This document shows, one piece after another, positions 892 to 13,238 of a stretch of 64,000 nucleotides of DNA. The notes below the pieces were generated by a model, which saw only the letters and a list, made by a program, of their open reading frames with translations, was not told where the DNA came from and made no database searches. A program made the translations under genes and the position numbers. The stretch is taken from contig WRLU01000010.1 in NCBI GenBank assembly GCA_009777475.1, forward strand, positions 1-64,000. The letters are read 5' to 3'. Origin of the DNA: Oscillospiraceae bacterium. Lineage in GTDB: Bacteria > Bacillota > Clostridia > Oscillospirales > UBA929. The first letter of the stretch is position 1; each line of letters opens with the position of its first letter.

Positions 892-1377
892 ATGATCATT
901 ACTGTTTTTTCTGATAGCCATGGGTTTACAGACACAATGACATCTGTTTTGCAGCGGAATCCTCCTGAAGCATCCGGTGTTTTTATACATCTGGGAGATT
1001 TTAGCCGTGATGCGGCGGTGCTGAGACCGTTCGGTGAGGTTTTTTCAGTAAGAGGCAACTCCGATGAGTATGCCAGTCACGACAGAACAATCCCATCACG
1101 CTTACTTACCGAATATGAGGGTGTTAAAATACTGGCCTGCCATGGACATATGCATGGGGTTAAAGCTGGGCTTGAAAGGCTGTTTTCAGAGGGAAAGGAA
1201 AAAGGTGCTGATGTTATACTGTTTGGACATACCCATGTGCCGTTTTGTGAGGTGCATGACGGTGTTTTACTCGCCAATCCTGGCAGTATAGCCTGTCCCA
1301 TACCCGGGCAGCACATGAGCTATGGGGTTTTGGAAATAAAGGATAAAACTCCGTCATTTTTTATAAAGATTGCATAA
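892..1377 (+). CDS. YfcE/MJ0936-family metallophosphoesterase
   Basis: This 161-residue protein belongs to the calcineurin-like metallophosphoesterases of the YfcE/MJ0936 type, small cytoplasmic enzymes that hydrolyse phosphodiesters with a two-metal centre. The metal-binding motifs are all visible: DSH at residues 8-10, LGD near 34-36, GNSD near 55-58, a GH around residue 84, and GHTH near 111-114, followed by NPGS. Length matches the family. The start at ATG 892 follows an AAAGGCGG ribosome binding site. It is transcribed alone and ends in a strong hairpin. In many Clostridia this gene sits next to rph and rdgB; that context is missing here, which suggests it is at the edge of a rearranged region. 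The substrate is unknown. Confidence 0.9.
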   Translation: MIITVFSDSHGFTDTMTSVLQRNPPEASGVFIHLGDFSRDAAVLRPFGEVFSVRGNSDEYASHDRTIPSRLLTEYEGVKILACHGHMHGVKAGLERLFSEGKEKGADVILFGHTHVPFCEVHDGVLLANPGSIACPIPGQHMSYGVLEIKDKTPSFFIKIA

Positions 1378-1421: not shown

Positions 1422-1857
1422 TTAGGCGTTGAATGAAGGGTTTACAGCGTAAATGTTTTTTTGGCCCAACCGCTCCTGTGCAAGCCTTAATCCTTCACCG
1501 AAGCGTTGATAATGCACTATTTCACGGGCACGCAGGAACTTTATAACATCGCTGACGTCCGGGTCATCTGAAAGCCGCAGGATATTATCATAGGTTGTTC
1601 TGGCTTTCTGCTCCGCCGCCAAATTCTCGTGTAAGTCGGTAAGCACATCGCCTTTTGAAGCCATTCCGGCTGCAGTCCATGGCACGCCTGAGGCAGAAGC
1701 AGGATATACACCGGTTGTGTGGTCTACAAAGTAGGCATCATAGCCTCCTTTTTTGAGGTCGTCATCCTTTAGACCCCGGGTCAATTGATAAACAAGTGTG
1801 CCGACCATTTCCAGGTGACCTAATTCCTCTGTCCCTATGTCGCGTACTAAAATGTCG
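1422..1857 (-). pseudogene. cotJC: 3' fragment of spore coat gene cotJC, interrupted by the recombinase element
   Basis: In this frame the residues DIGTEELGHLEMVGT, VDHTTG, AAEQKARTTYDNI and DDPDVSDVIKFLRAREIVH match the C-terminal two-thirds of CotJC, a manganese-catalase-like spore coat protein. The conserved EELGHLEM and AREIVHYQRF segments carry metal-ligand Glu and His residues of that fold. The first ~60 residues of CotJC and a start codon are absent: upstream of DIGTEEL, near 1850, the sequence becomes the 3' end of a serine recombinase gene read in another frame. An internal ATG at 1808 could start 128 residues but would drop the first metal ligands. The missing 5' part and cotJA/cotJB are not found in the window, so the locus has been rearranged after insertion. 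Confidence 0.85.
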
Positions 1858-3522
1858 CACTTCCTCCGAGTTATTTTCTTCTGCGAGTTGGGCGGCGATT
1901 TCAGTTACCGTTCTCGCTTCAAGAGCCTGCGATACCGTATAACCCCATCTATGGGGCAGCAGATTTAGATACACGTCTATATTCTCCCTGTTGTGAACAA
2001 CCATGCGATCTAAAAGACTGCGGTAAAATTCTTCTTCTAGGGTCATACCATCAACAATCTCATTGACTGCGGATGTAATATCCCATATCAGCTCATGTTG
2101 TTGTCTTATGACCGTATCTTTCTTCTCTATGCTGTTGACCATTCTTTCCAGCGCATCTATTTCTTCATCGCACTTTGTTCGGACGGCAATAAACTCTTCC
2201 CGCCTAATGTTCTTGCCAATATAAAGCTCTAGCAGGCGGGATTTCTTTTCTTCTGCCTTGCGAACACTCTCTCGCAGACTTTCGGTGTCAACCTCAGCCA
2301 TATCGCTTAAAGCAACGGATTCAATGACTTTTATCATGTTCTTTACAATCGCCTTTTTATCTGTTTCAAGGCTATTTGAAACGAGATACATGATTTGCAG
2401 GGCATCCTCATTGCGTATGCTTTCGCAAGAACAGCCTACGTGATTGCCAGCCTTATCAATGCGCGGTTTTCCATGCCGTGTCCCTTCTAAACAACGCCAT
2501 GCTTTGTATGTGCTGCCGTCTTTGCGTTTTGTGTATCTGGCAACGAATAGCCGATTACAGCGGCCGCACCTGATTTTCCCTGAAAAACAATATCGGTTAC
2601 TGTGCTTTGTTTTGCTTTCTGGGGAGGATGAACGCTCATCCAGTATCCGGTTTGCTTCATCAAAAATCTCACGACTGACAATCGCCTCATGGTGGTCTTT
2701 GAGGATAACAAATTCCTCCTCACCGTTGTTGTATTTCTTTTCATGGGATAGGTAATCCGGCGTAATTGTTTTCTTCTGAACAAGGTCGCCGCAGTATTTT
2801 TCATTGCGCAGAATCTTATAAATGACTGTGTTTGACCACATAGCATTGCCGGTGATGGTTTTGTATCCGGCTTCTCGAAGTTCACGGGCAATAGTATGGG
2901 AACCTTTGCCCTCTTGAACGAATTTTTGAAAAACCAGACGAACAATTTTTGCACCGTCCTCATTTATAAACATCTGGCCGTTACGCACATCGTAACCCAA
3001 CATATCCCGCCCGAATACAACGCCTTGCTCCATACGGCGTTTTTGTCCCCATTTTACACGTTCGGAGGTTTTTCGACTTTCCTCCTGTGCAATAGAGGAC
3101 ATGATGGTTAAGCGAAGTTCTGCATCCGGGTCAAGAGTATTTATGTTATCGCTGAGGAATATAACACCTACTCCACGTTTTTTCAGGTCGCGGGTGTAAT
3201 ATATGCTGTCGAGCGTATTTCGGGCAAAGCGGGAAATTTCTTTTGTGATAATCAAATCGAAGTCCCCGCTTTTGGCACAGGAAATCATACGGTTAAAGCC
3301 TTTACGCTTTTTTGTATTTGTACCGGAAATACCCTCATCGGCAAAAACTTCATATAGCTCCCAATCGGGCATACGCTCAATATACTCTCGGAAATATTTT
3401 TGCTGACTTTCAAAGGAATTTGCTTGGTCATCCTTATCGGTGGACACACGGCAATAGGCCGCAACCCGTTTCTTTTTTTCTACAATCTGACGTTCTTGAT
3501 TTAGGCGTTCATACTTTTTCAT
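1762..3522 (-). CDS. Large serine recombinase, integrated in cotJC
   Basis: A 586-residue site-specific recombinase. The N-terminal catalytic domain has AAYCRVSTD (the nucleophile Ser is in this motif), DEGISGTNTKKRKGFNRM and EISRFARN. A recombinase domain follows, then a zinc ribbon (CGRCNR with a later cysteine pair) and a C-terminal coiled coil. The start at ATG 3522 is set by AAAGGAG eight bases upstream. The last ~30 residues are read out of frame through cotJC sequence, so the native C-terminus was defined by the attachment junction. Recombinases of this class excise elements that split sporulation genes such as sigK, restoring the gene in the mother cell. The position inside cotJC suggests the same arrangement once existed here. 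Confidence 0.9.
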   Translation of the reverse strand: MKKYERLNQERQIVEKKKRVAAYCRVSTDKDDQANSFESQQKYFREYIERMPDWELYEVFADEGISGTNTKKRKGFNRMISCAKSGDFDLIITKEISRFARNTLDSIYYTRDLKKRGVGVIFLSDNINTLDPDAELRLTIMSSIAQEESRKTSERVKWGQKRRMEQGVVFGRDMLGYDVRNGQMFINEDGAKIVRLVFQKFVQEGKGSHTIARELREAGYKTITGNAMWSNTVIYKILRNEKYCGDLVQKKTITPDYLSHEKKYNNGEEEFVILKDHHEAIVSREIFDEANRILDERSSSPESKTKHSNRYCFSGKIRCGRCNRLFVARYTKRKDGSTYKAWRCLEGTRHGKPRIDKAGNHVGCSCESIRNEDALQIMYLVSNSLETDKKAIVKNMIKVIESVALSDMAEVDTESLRESVRKAEEKKSRLLELYIGKNIRREEFIAVRTKCDEEIDALERMVNSIEKKDTVIRQQHELIWDITSAVNEIVDGMTLEEEFYRSLLDRMVVHNRENIDVYLNLLPHRWGYTVSQALEARTVTEIAAQLAEENNSEEVRHFSTRHRDRGIRSPGNGRHTCLSIDPGSKG

Positions 3523-3601: not shown

Positions 3602-3640
3602 GATAAAATCAGCCAACCTCACAGCTTGGCTGATTTTATC
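3602..3640. terminator. Perfect 15-bp hairpin between two minus-strand genes
   Basis: GATAAAATCAGCCAA (3602-3616) pairs exactly with 3626-3640 around a 9-base loop; the outer A/T-rich arms give a U-tract in either direction. It overlaps the stop codon of the 61-residue gene at 3636 and probably ends its transcription before the recombinase gene. Confidence 0.6.
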
Positions 3641-3821
3641 CTCGGTTCGTCTGGTTCTCCAGTTTTTCAATACACCGTTCGCATTGTGATAGAGTGATCA
3701 ACCCCCGCTTTACCAAAGAAAGAAGTATTGACCTCTGATATTGCAGGAGGAAATCGGGATAATCTTCTTGTGTGATTTTGGGAACTGGCTCGCCAGTATA
3801 TACAAAGTCACGATGTTTCAA
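3636..3821 (-). CDS. Small conserved-looking protein upstream of the recombinase
   Basis: A 61-residue protein with a charged C-terminal helix (SLVKRGLITLSQCERCIEKL) of the short-oligomerisation-helix type often seen in small proteins beside clostridial recombinases. The ATG at 3821 is preceded on the minus strand by GAGGAGGTGTTGACATTTGAA, giving a ribosome binding site at slightly long spacing. Function unknown; a role in recombination directionality is conceivable because of its position but is not shown by the sequence. Confidence 0.5.
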   Translation of the reverse strand: MKHRDFVYTGEPVPKITQEDYPDFLLQYQRSILLSLVKRGLITLSQCERCIEKLENQTNRG

Positions 3822-3888: not shown

Positions 3889-4077
3889 TTAAATCCCCTC
3901 TCCTGCCGCCGACCAGACCGCCACCGTTCGTCCGCTCTTGGCGCAGATTGTTTTTCCGACAGTCCGCACCAACCCAATAACCACCAATTCTGTCAGACGG
4001 GGAGCGGCAAAGTTCCGTTCATCGCTGGGAGTGATGCCCCGCTTGTGAAGCTCAGAGGCGACTTCCTGTGCTATCAT
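3889..4077 (-). CDS. Small phage-type winged-helix-like protein
   Basis: This 62-residue frame reads as a short winged helix: a helix with ELHKRGITPSDERNFAAPRL, a recognition-helix-like LTELVVIGLVRTVGK, then a beta-hairpin CAKSGRTVAVW. Proteins of this size and pattern occur in phage replication or transcription modules. The ATG at 4077 has no strong ribosome binding site and the gene may be a remnant. Neighbours are phage and Rhs fragments. Confidence 0.45.
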   Translation of the reverse strand: MIAQEVASELHKRGITPSDERNFAAPRLTELVVIGLVRTVGKTICAKSGRTVAVWSAAGEGI

Positions 4078-4279: not shown

Positions 4280-4685
4280 ATGGAGGCCATATCCGCATTT
4301 GGTCTGACAGGGGTGGGGCTGGTCAACAGGCTGGAAAACATTATGTCACAGGGGTTCATCCGTGGCAGCGACCCCCGAACCCTTATCAAGAGTATCGGGG
4401 ATTTCCTCGACCCAAAGTATATCGGCAAACGAAAAAACGGTTATAACAGTTGTGCAAGGCGGCTGATACTCACCGAATCGGCGTATTTTGCCAGCAAAGC
4501 CACCCACGATGCCTACCACAGCCAAGGCGTGAAAATGTTTCAGTTTTTGGCAACACTCGATGAAAAGACGTGTCCTATCTGTGGCGGTTTGGAAAGCTCG
4601 GAGGCAAACCAAAAGGGCTTGAAAAATTCCGTTATGACATTCTATCGAATCCGAGGGCGGAACTTAAAAAGGCCGGAGGGCAAAA
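4280..4685 (+). pseudogene. Remnant of an SPP1 gp7-like phage head morphogenesis protein
   Basis: The residues FLATLDEKTCPICGGLE preceded by TESAYFASKATHDAY match the C-terminal part of gp7/MuF-type minor head proteins of tailed phages. The fragment has lost its N-terminal half and its normal C-terminus. After GGLES the frame drifts, and another frame (with NPRAELKKAGG near 4650) looks equally protein-like, so more than one junction is present. At about 4686 the frame enters Rhs-derived sequence (LDMNG). This is a recombination scar joining phage and Rhs DNA, not a working gene. Confidence 0.6.
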
Positions 4686-5603
4686 AAATAGTGCTTGACA
4701 TGAATGGGACAAATGTGGTAACTTTTATATAAGCTCATCGTCTCCGATTATGGCTGGTACGTCCATAATGGGCGTGGGGATGTAACTGCACTGACGGATG
4801 ACGATGGGGAAATCACGGAGAACTACGACTACACGCCGTTTGGCGAGGAAAAGCTTGCGACAAATAGCGAGAATCCGTATCGGTTTTGTGGGGAGTACAC
4901 GGATACCGAGAGTGAGTATGTGTACCTCAGGGCAAGGTATTATGTGCCGGAGTTGGGGCGGTTTGTGAACGAGGATCCCGCGTTAGATGGGGACAATTGG
5001 TATGTTTACGCAAATAACGACCCGGTGAATTGGATTGACCCGACAGGTCTGTGGGGCAAGAAGGTTCATTATGACGACACAAAAAAATGGGCAAAAGAGG
5101 TTGGGATATCCACTTTATATGCAGAGATTTTGGCGAGGGCAAATTATTCAGTGGACAGCGGAAATACTAGCCCGAAAACAACTAACCAGTGGGCTTTAAG
5201 CTGGCATTTCAATAGGAATCCGAAAGGTTCTAAAGATTCGCGAATAGTACATTTTGAAAGAAAATACAAAGAGGCAAAGAAAAGCTGGAAATCTGATAAG
5301 AAAAAGGCCATGACTGCACTTGGTCAAGGCTTACACCCTTTGCAGGATTTATTTGCACATCAGGATTGGGCGGTGGGCAAAGATTTCGTTCTGCCCCATA
5401 AGGCGTGGTACATTGATAAACTTGGAAAGGCGTGGGGCGTTTGGGGTTTATTCGATAACCCCGATTATGATTTGCAAAAAAATAAACATGGTGAATATAT
5501 CGCTAAGTATAAGGGCAAAAACAATAGTCTTAGGTATAAAAATGTAATGAAAACCACTAAGGCGTGGTTAAAATACTTCAAGAAAGAGGTCGGATATAAA
5601 TAA
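4686..5603 (+). pseudogene. Orphan Rhs C-terminal end with a variable toxin tip
   Basis: Rhs core landmarks are clear: NPYRFCGEY, YLRARYYVPELGRFVNEDP and the border sequence DPVNWIDPTG, matching the Rhs copy at 8.3-9.4 kb. Up to about 4730 the homologous text (LDMNGTNVV) is in another frame and has stops, so the 5' part is broken; a frame open from 4731 runs to 5603. After the DPTG border lies a 185-residue variable tip with HPLQDLFAHQDW, a motif recalling the histidine/aspartate metal sites of zinc phospholipase C/P1-nuclease-like folds. It is basic throughout. The tip is intact but lacks its own start codon; a GTG at 4920 is not supported by a good ribosome binding site. Its likely immunity gene follows 20 bases downstream. 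Confidence 0.75.
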
Positions 5604-11604: not shown

Positions 11605-11735
11605 TTTCGCCAATGCTTGATATTACAAGAAATTTTCGGGTCTATGACTTGGAAATCAGCCGGAAATGGATATCTGTGTCAGTGGGAGAGCTGCGCTTAT
11701 TTGCGTTTTGCGGGCAAATCGAAAGGAGTTTTTTT

Positions 11736-11879
11736 ATGTCTGCAAATACCTATATTAACCTGTTGGCTCAAGCCGAAAAGCTTCGCCGGCACAATCGCCA
11801 AGGGAGCTGGAAAACCAAGGAACGCCGCAAATTCGGTGGTGTTGACAGGACTTGGAACTGGGGGGATGAGGGTGTTTGA
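11736..11879 (+). CDS. Small hypothetical protein upstream of the excisionase
   Basis: A 47-residue, basic, tryptophan-containing peptide with a clear ribosome binding site (GAAAGGAG, 7 bases before ATG 11736). Its 3' end overlaps the start of the excisionase gene by 14 bases, so translation is probably coupled. Small ORFs of this type often precede xis-int pairs. Function unknown. Confidence 0.45.
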   Translation: MSANTYINLLAQAEKLRRHNRQGSWKTKERRKFGGVDRTWNWGDEGV

Positions 11880-12111
11880 GGGGTATAAAGATGTCGTCAC
11901 CGTCAGAGACCTTGCAAAGATGCTGAATATCGGACACAATACGGCTTACGCTCTGTTGAAAAGCAATCAAATTTCCCATGTGCGAGTGGGCAGAAAATAT
12001 ATCATCCCAAAACAATCTGTGATTGGATTTGTCGAGAAAATGTGCTATAATAACAGCATGATAATCAATGGTAGGCTAAATAATCAGTCATCGAAAGGAG
12101 AATCGCCATGA
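11866..12111 (+). CDS. Excisionase-type helix-turn-helix protein
   Basis: An 81-residue protein with an N-terminal MerR-like winged helix: VTVRDLAKMLNIGHNTAYAL then LLKSNQISHVRVGRKYIIPK, the HTH_17/excisionase pattern in which the first helix-turn-helix is followed by a wing. The stop codon overlaps the integrase ATG (ATGA), so both are translated from one mRNA. It likely controls the direction of integrase action by bending the attachment site and may also repress the operon. The start could be ATG 11866 or GTG 11872. Confidence 0.75.
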   Translation: MRVFEGYKDVVTVRDLAKMLNIGHNTAYALLKSNQISHVRVGRKYIIPKQSVIGFVEKMCYNNSMIINGRLNNQSSKGESP

Positions 12112-13238
12112 CTGGAAGCTTACAAATCAAAAGCGGTGTTTATTACGCCGTTCTAAACCTAAAAGACGAATACGGCAAGCGTTGTCCTAAGTGGATATGC
12201 ACACATCTTGAGGTTAAAAACAATAAGCGGAAAGCCGAAGAGTTTTTGAATAAACTCTTGGCGGAGTATGATGGTGTGAAAACCGCATACAGTAATGATA
12301 TTCTGTTTACAGAGTATCTGTATCAGTGGTTGGAGGCAATTTCTGGTTCGATTGAGCCGAATACATATGAATCCTACCGCTATATCATCAACCGCTATAT
12401 CGAACCGTACTTTGCCGAGAGAAAAATCAAACTGCGAAGCCTTGAACCTCAGCATATCCAAGACTTCTATAACGGTCAGTTGAAAAAGGGATTGAGTGCC
12501 AACACAATCCTCAAGCAACACGCTAACATTCGTAAGTCCCTGCAAAATGCCGTTAAGATGAACATAATCCCCTATAACCCGGCTGACCGGATAACGCTTC
12601 CCAAAAAACAAAAATACATAGCAAGCTTCTACACTGCCGGGCAAGTAAACAATCTTCTCTCCGCTGTCAAGAATGAACCAATCTATCCCGCTGTTATTCT
12701 CACAGCGTTCTATGGATTCAGGCGGAGCGAGGTGCTAGGTCTGAAATGGAAACACATAGATTTTAAGGTTGGTACAGTAACGGTACAGGACACGAGGGTG
12801 CAGTTTAAGAGCCTCATCGACAAGCCGAGGACAAAGAATAAATCCAGCCACCGTACATTGCCGCTTGTACCCGCAATGCGGGAATTCCTCTGCAACCTGA
12901 AACGTCAGCAGATGGAAAATAGGTTGTTGCTTGGAACGGGGTATATTGTCAACGATTATGTGTGTGTATGGGATGACGGCAGACCGTTTAGACCAGATTA
13001 CATCACAGACCGTTTCGGAAACCTCCTCAAACAGCACAACCTCCCCCATATCCGTTTCCACGACCTACGGCATAGTGCCGCCAGTATGCTCCTTGCCAAC
13101 GGATATTCCCTAAAAGAAATTCAAGAATGGCTAGGTCACGGAGACCTTGGGACAACCGCAAATATCTACGCACATTTAGAATTCCAAGCCAAGCAGAACA
13201 TGGCTGCTTCGTTAGGGGAAAATCTGATTATCGGGTAA
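12108..13238 (+). CDS. Tyrosine site-specific integrase (Tn916/phage type)
   Basis: A 376-residue tyrosine recombinase. Residues 1-60 form an arm-type DNA-binding domain, 65-160 the SAM-like core-binding domain, and the rest the catalytic domain. Catalytic residues are visible: Arg in FYGFRRSEVLGLKW, HDLRHSAA (His-x-x-Arg), the second His in WLGHGDLGTTANIYAH, and the Tyr nucleophile in that same segment. Length is normal and the gene is intact. It overlaps the excisionase gene by four bases and ends ~100 bases from the 3' end of tRNA-Arg, the usual position for an integrase that uses a tRNA gene as target. Confidence 0.92.
   Translation: MTGSLQIKSGVYYAVLNLKDEYGKRCPKWICTHLEVKNNKRKAEEFLNKLLAEYDGVKTAYSNDILFTEYLYQWLEAISGSIEPNTYESYRYIINRYIEPYFAERKIKLRSLEPQHIQDFYNGQLKKGLSANTILKQHANIRKSLQNAVKMNIIPYNPADRITLPKKQKYIASFYTAGQVNNLLSAVKNEPIYPAVILTAFYGFRRSEVLGLKWKHIDFKVGTVTVQDTRVQFKSLIDKPRTKNKSSHRTLPLVPAMREFLCNLKRQQMENRLLLGTGYIVNDYVCVWDDGRPFRPDYITDRFGNLLKQHNLPHIRFHDLRHSAASMLLANGYSLKEIQEWLGHGDLGTTANIYAHLEFQAKQNMAASLGENLIIG

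Follow-up and report, generated by a model that had tools for sequence, protein, structure and literature searches.

A sporulation gene, cotJC, is cut at codon 62 and abuts the gene of a large serine recombinase in the DNA analyzed here (the window; 64,000 nucleotides, bases 1 to 64,000 of a 66-kb contig from an assembly of 2.2 Mb in 78 contigs). Comparison with related loci leads us to a reading to which we assign a probability of about 0.75: the window junction would be the attR end of an element inserted at codon 62, one of a widespread class of skin-like elements that are specialized for cotJC and are excised in the mother cell. Judging from the sequences, precise excision would repair cotJC, probably in the mother cell as the spore develops.

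The cotJC remnant and the recombinase beside it

CotJC is a spore coat protein of the manganese-catalase family (Pfam PF05067). The window retains the 3' part of its gene, 137 codons and a stop (1422..1835, minus strand), which matches profile positions 58 to 197 of Mn_catalase with an E value of 2e-33 and encodes a sequence 70 to 72% identical to intact CotJC proteins of the same genus. The missing N-terminal part amounts to about 62 of 198 residues. This is the host side of the junction, and it is followed by a convergent phosphoesterase gene (892..1377, plus strand; PF12850). The boundary between host and element is the dinucleotide GG at 1834..1835 (minus strand), with which the Gly62 codon begins, as judged from the symmetry center of attP and from what attL and attR share in relatives. 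The attR arm of the element (1836..1861, minus strand) reads GTGCGACATTTTAGTACGCGACATA up to this core and has the motif and position of the attR arms of relatives. The original prediction had set the junction near 1850 and had taken CotJC to be intact from DIGTEEL to the C terminus; the 3' part is indeed intact, but the residues D-I belong to the element arm.

The recombinase is encoded by a 586-codon open reading frame (1762..3522, minus strand) and is full length, with the Resolvase, Recombinase, and zinc ribbon domains (PF00239, PF07508, and PF13408) that mark a large serine integrase. The predicted splitting of cotJC by such an enzyme was borne out, the truncated gene directly abutting the complete recombinase gene, and the locus shows two hallmarks of skin-like elements, an insertion within a sporulation gene and a site-specific recombinase encoded beside the junction. 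Rather than pointing outwards, as had been supposed, the recombinase gene is transcribed from 3522 down to 1762, into the junction and across its core, and its final 24 codons lie within cotJC DNA in a reading frame different from that of cotJC. Both the recombinase gene and the cotJC 3' half are free of disabling changes.

Directly upstream of the recombinase gene is an open reading frame of 61 amino acids (3636..3821, minus strand) that is conserved in many of the elements at codon 62 (site 62), where a frame of about 60 amino acids with a common core precedes the recombinase. It matched no family above the cut-off in Pfam, NCBIfam, or PHROGs. By analogy with the factors of SPbeta and gin (PMC5595907), its product is a candidate directionality factor; it may instead be a coregulator. 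Farther on are a small open reading frame resembling phrog_1123, a phage family of unknown function (3889..4077, minus strand), which is probably cargo of the element, and a fragment of a phage minor head protein (4280..4732, plus strand; TIGR01641, phrog_115), probably a remnant of it. The region from 4 to 13 kb is made up of Rhs fragments, this phage head fragment, and a tyrosine integrase module, and chromosomal genes begin at about 13.8 kb. At least two C-terminal fragments of Rhs cores, with differing tails and small open reading frames behind them, lie between 4920 and 9294. An excisionase-like open reading frame followed by the tyrosine integrase (11617 to 13238) constitutes a second integration module, which adjoins the start of the chromosomal genes.

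Recombinase relatives and their attachment sites

Two sets were searched for homologues of the recombinase, 394 genomes belonging to the same order and 84,980 species genomes. At most of the approximately 110 loci obtained, the recombinase directly adjoins half of a cotJC gene that is likewise broken at codon 62, and the association with cotJC is therefore not due to chance. The close homologues, at about 44 to 70% identity, are mostly found beside a cotJC half, and both halves are present at about 20 loci. The one dinucleotide common to attL and attR in all 22 of 22 complete elements is the GG with which codon 62 (Gly) begins. Relatives thus have a core shared by both junctions, such as the original prediction proposed to look for; the window's own genome yielded no second att arm. 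The attP site rebuilt from the two element arms is an inverted repeat, its symmetry being 0.66 when centered on GG and about 0.27 at other centers (n = 22). Serine integrases are expected to use att sites of this design, an inverted repeat around a central dinucleotide, as reconstructed here. A palindromic TA core, taken from GGTACC, was considered as an explanation for the two orientations of the recombinase gene described below, and it was rejected because both the attP symmetry and the identity of attL and attR center on GG.

When the flanks were joined at a shared dinucleotide, an in-frame CotJC of 180 to 228 amino acids resulted in 27 of 28 cases among relatives, including the single-contig genome G242, with an element of 3.1 kb, and two commensal isolates with complete elements, Fusibacillus kribbianus YH-rum2234 (L073), with an element of 3.8 kb, and Bacterium 1xD42-87 (L098). 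The rejoined protein was short in G233 and L101, due to a further break near codon 178, and long in G197, where the automatic choice of the crossover was imperfect; the sole failure was G194.

Two layouts occur: the recombinase gene lies beside the 5' half and runs antisense to cotJC, or, as in the window, it lies beside the 3' half in the sense orientation. The sense layout is scattered across the recombinase tree, a pattern that would fit repeated switches of orientation by elements whose attP arms are nearly symmetric. Three different families have recombinase genes that are 97.6 to 98.6% identical at the DNA level and cotJC 5' halves that are only 66 to 71% identical, indicating that the elements move between hosts and land precisely. 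Because near-identical recombinases occur in families whose cotJC differs by about 30%, the cotJC elements as a class are not fossils.

Several relatives have peculiarities of their own. In G145:C2 (L013 and L184), the recombinase frame reads straight on into that of the cotJC 3' half, making an open reading frame of more than 700 amino acids, so that excision would alter the C terminus of the recombinase. The cargo at L053:3776-10948 resembles a peroxiredoxin and a thioredoxin reductase, that is, a peroxide defense inside an element that interrupts a catalase-family gene, and short-chain dehydrogenases recur in L053, L073, and L075. At L096:31-2820 the cotJC 3' half is present twice in tandem, and the copy nearer the recombinase has decayed.

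Four insertion sites within cotJC

Among 322 genomes of one order that bear cotJC, 129 have no near-full-length match. In 79 genomes without such a match, the cotJC pieces end at four recurrent places, at codons of about 33, 62, 137, and 178; by our reading, cotJC is fragmented in about 66 of these genomes, the other 13 having a divergent full-length homologue instead. The most extreme case is G232:C1:205516-288984 (L153 to L157), where cotJC lies in five collinear pieces over 83 kb of one contig, every junction having its own recombinase directly beside it. There are four collinear pieces over 25 kb in G050 (C1) and three, on one contig each, in G044 (C1) and G184 (C4), and across these four multiply split genes a serine recombinase adjoins most junctions. 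In G232 one flank of the codon-62 junction has lost its GG, and the site may be dead there.

The four sites correspond to four separate recombinase groups in a FastTree tree with some long branches. Aligned to manganese-catalase relatives of solved structure, they fall at GGPDGE, GTEExxH, LAAE, and HxQRFGE, which we take to be conserved metal-ligand motifs of CotJC. The high conservation of these motifs would make them natural attB sites. The sequences lead us to favor, by a small measure, the view that gut Clostridia carry cotJC as a gene in pieces, with four recombinase clades that each target one metal-ligand motif, up to four elements per copy, and a mother cell that would need as many as four precise excisions to make one coat catalase.

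Selection on the cotJC halves and proposed timing of excision

The cotJC pieces at site 62 show little decay. All 80 of the 80 5' pieces are open from the start codon to the junction, and the same is true of 37 among the 47 3' pieces; of the ten that are not open, most are cut again at codon 137. Median omega was 0.235 for 5' halves and 0.144 for 3' halves versus 0.134 for intact genes, which indicates purifying selection on both halves, although the low values may partly predate recent insertions because the elements are mobile.

Sigma-E-like promoters with spacers of 13 to 15 bp, scored as consensus matches rather than mapped start sites, precede the site-62 recombinase operons in 23 of 72 distinct regions (two thirds of regions have no match), compared with 33 of 925 control open reading frames (p = 8e-14). 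The excess was not significant at other spacers. The recombinase operons of the other three clades have such promoters in 5 of 17 cases, and no strong sigma-E match was found upstream of the window's own recombinase operon. The control open reading frames show a sigma-A spacer peak at 17 bp, so the method does work. CATAnnnT motifs occur in 56 of 88 regions upstream of cotJA and in 95 of 925 controls. The sigma-K-like score of the cotJA upstream regions is also raised, and cotJ is perhaps transcribed later than the recombinase.

The promoter signal and the undecayed state of the pieces suggest that the mother cell is where the elements would be excised, like skin, gin, and yin. The sequence of events that we propose begins with a large serine recombinase that would have inserted an integrative element into codon 62 of cotJC, leaving the window junction as attR. 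Recombination of attL with attR, as predicted from relatives that have both ends, would yield an in-frame CotJC gene and an element circle carrying the inverted-repeat attP. In the mother cell, a sigma-E-type promoter would drive expression of the recombinase and the adjacent small protein, and the recombinase would excise the element there, allowing the cotJ operon to make CotJC. The spore-bound chromosome would presumably keep the element.

The window copy and alternative explanations

The other half of cotJC had been noted to be missing from the window, and it is in fact absent from the whole assembly. A genome-wide search for the 5' part with cotJA and cotJB, proposed along with that observation, found nothing: the 99%-complete assembly (2.2 Mb, 78 contigs) has no match to the cotJC 5' part, to cotJB, or to a second cotJC or other manganese catalase, and neither cotJA nor an attL arm was found in searches of the genome and window. 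A second complete cotJC in a genome lacking a matching 5' fragment had been named as the observation that would count against a skin-like element; there is no second cotJC, and the 5' fragment is missing too. Three genomes of the same genus have an intact cotJA-cotJB-cotJC operon, and in a synteny comparison the genes adjoining the 13.8-kb boundary were not shared with same-genus genomes. The window's genome encodes SpoIVA, and the host thus has at least this component of the sporulation program.

With neither a second cotJC nor a 5' part nor cotJB in the assembly, the window copy may no longer be restorable; its missing half may reflect deletion, rearrangement, or an assembly gap. We give even odds to the window locus being a dead remnant, in which a later deletion or rearrangement took the 5' half with cotJA and cotJB and left the recombinase and the 3' half behind. 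The near-completeness of the assembly that lacks cotJB and the 5' part fits such a loss, as does the filling of the 4- to 13-kb region with Rhs, phage head, and tyrosine integrase sequences ahead of the chromosomal genes. Set against it are the undamaged recombinase gene and 3' half and the position of the junction, 1.8 kb from a contig end in an assembly of 78 contigs, where the other half has perhaps merely gone unassembled. The description of the locus as a fossil, broken up later, fits this genome in that the 5' half and cotJB are missing, but the same intact genes and possible gap weaken it, and it does not extend to the class. Death of the locus would apply to the window copy alone and does not conflict with the reading we prefer for the class. 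That the junction is an assembly chimera is highly improbable: the assembly is a draft and the junction is near a contig end, but the same type of junction occurs in isolates and in a single-contig genome, and the window's attR arm bears the family motif.

For the class as a whole, the elements could be ordinary integrative elements that land in a conserved gene, inactivate a dispensable coat protein, and excise for transfer only, with no developmental program. In favor of this, the elements move between families, they insert at the most conserved motifs, as would be expected of any integrase target, and some genomes have a single cotJC half. We nevertheless consider this unlikely given that none of the 80 5' pieces has decayed, that both halves are under purifying selection, that genes split two to four times are mostly without disabling changes, and that sigma-E-like promoters accompany the recombinase operons in the data for all sites. 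Developmental excision is the reading we prefer, and the predicted skin-like layout draws support from the precise att sites, in-frame restorations, undamaged halves, and sigma-E-like promoters of relatives; the window copy itself lacks the 5' half.

Comparison with known gene-intervening elements

Known elements that intervene in sporulation genes are skin in sigK, SPbeta in spsM, vfbin in spoVFB, and gin in gerE (PMC5595907), and yin in yabG (PMC10747680). The cotJC elements resemble them in being serine recombinase elements inside a mother-cell sporulation gene, in an inverted-repeat att site that surrounds a short core, and in the in-frame restoration of the gene by attL and attR recombination, seen for cotJC in relatives; like gin, many have no obvious phage genes. 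Excision at the time of sporulation was demonstrated for the known elements and would be expected by analogy for those in cotJC. The cotJC elements differ in that the target is new, in that a single gene has four separate sites, four recombinase clades, and up to four elements per copy, and in that many are very small (2.9 to 11 kb) and are found across several families. The open-access full text searched describes no cotJC-intervening element, and the novelty of the cotJC elements is provisional. In Clostridioides difficile, phi027 is located next to a cotJC homologue (PMC11222575), but the homologue is downstream of attR and unsplit, and the case is a different one.

The cyanobacterial interruption elements of heterocyst genes (nifD, fdxN, and hupL; PMC4874684) are likewise numerous serine recombinase elements that interrupt genes of a terminal cell type, with recombinases that cluster by insertion variant and recombinase genes in both orientations. 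The phylum, cell type, and genes differ, however, and the NCBIfam XisF match is weak and far below the cut-off. Assignment to that group was rejected, the host being of a spore-forming lineage, as SpoIVA indicates, and the gene being cotJC; the likeness is one of analogy only. The domain architecture and the att logic with a central dinucleotide are also those of the large serine integrases of phages and conjugative transposons (TP901-1, A118, and TnpX class), but identity to records of a phage collection is at most 48.5%.

Programmed gene restoration in spore formers has so far been seen in a handful of genes and few species. If the reading preferred here is true, it would be common in gut and uncultured Clostridia. 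The cotJC elements also provide natural att pairs by the dozen, one gene with four recombinase specificities, and candidate directionality factors. With them, one could test whether hosts tolerate such elements because their departure is confined to a doomed cell.

Excised circles were sought among phage and viral contigs, and the candidates were rejected. Fragments of cotJC are present in the two best phage-collection records, which are not convincing phages, and in the three IMG/VR contigs that came closest; all five are probably pieces of chromosome, and none of the seven contigs inspected has terminal repeats. Sequences filed as phage or viral that contain cotJC fragments comprise MT839280.1, MT837874.1, MT838203.1, MT839049.1, MT839831.1, MT835881.1, and the IMG/VR contigs L202 to L204; several end at the codon-62 or codon-137 break, and they are probably of bacterial chromosomal origin.
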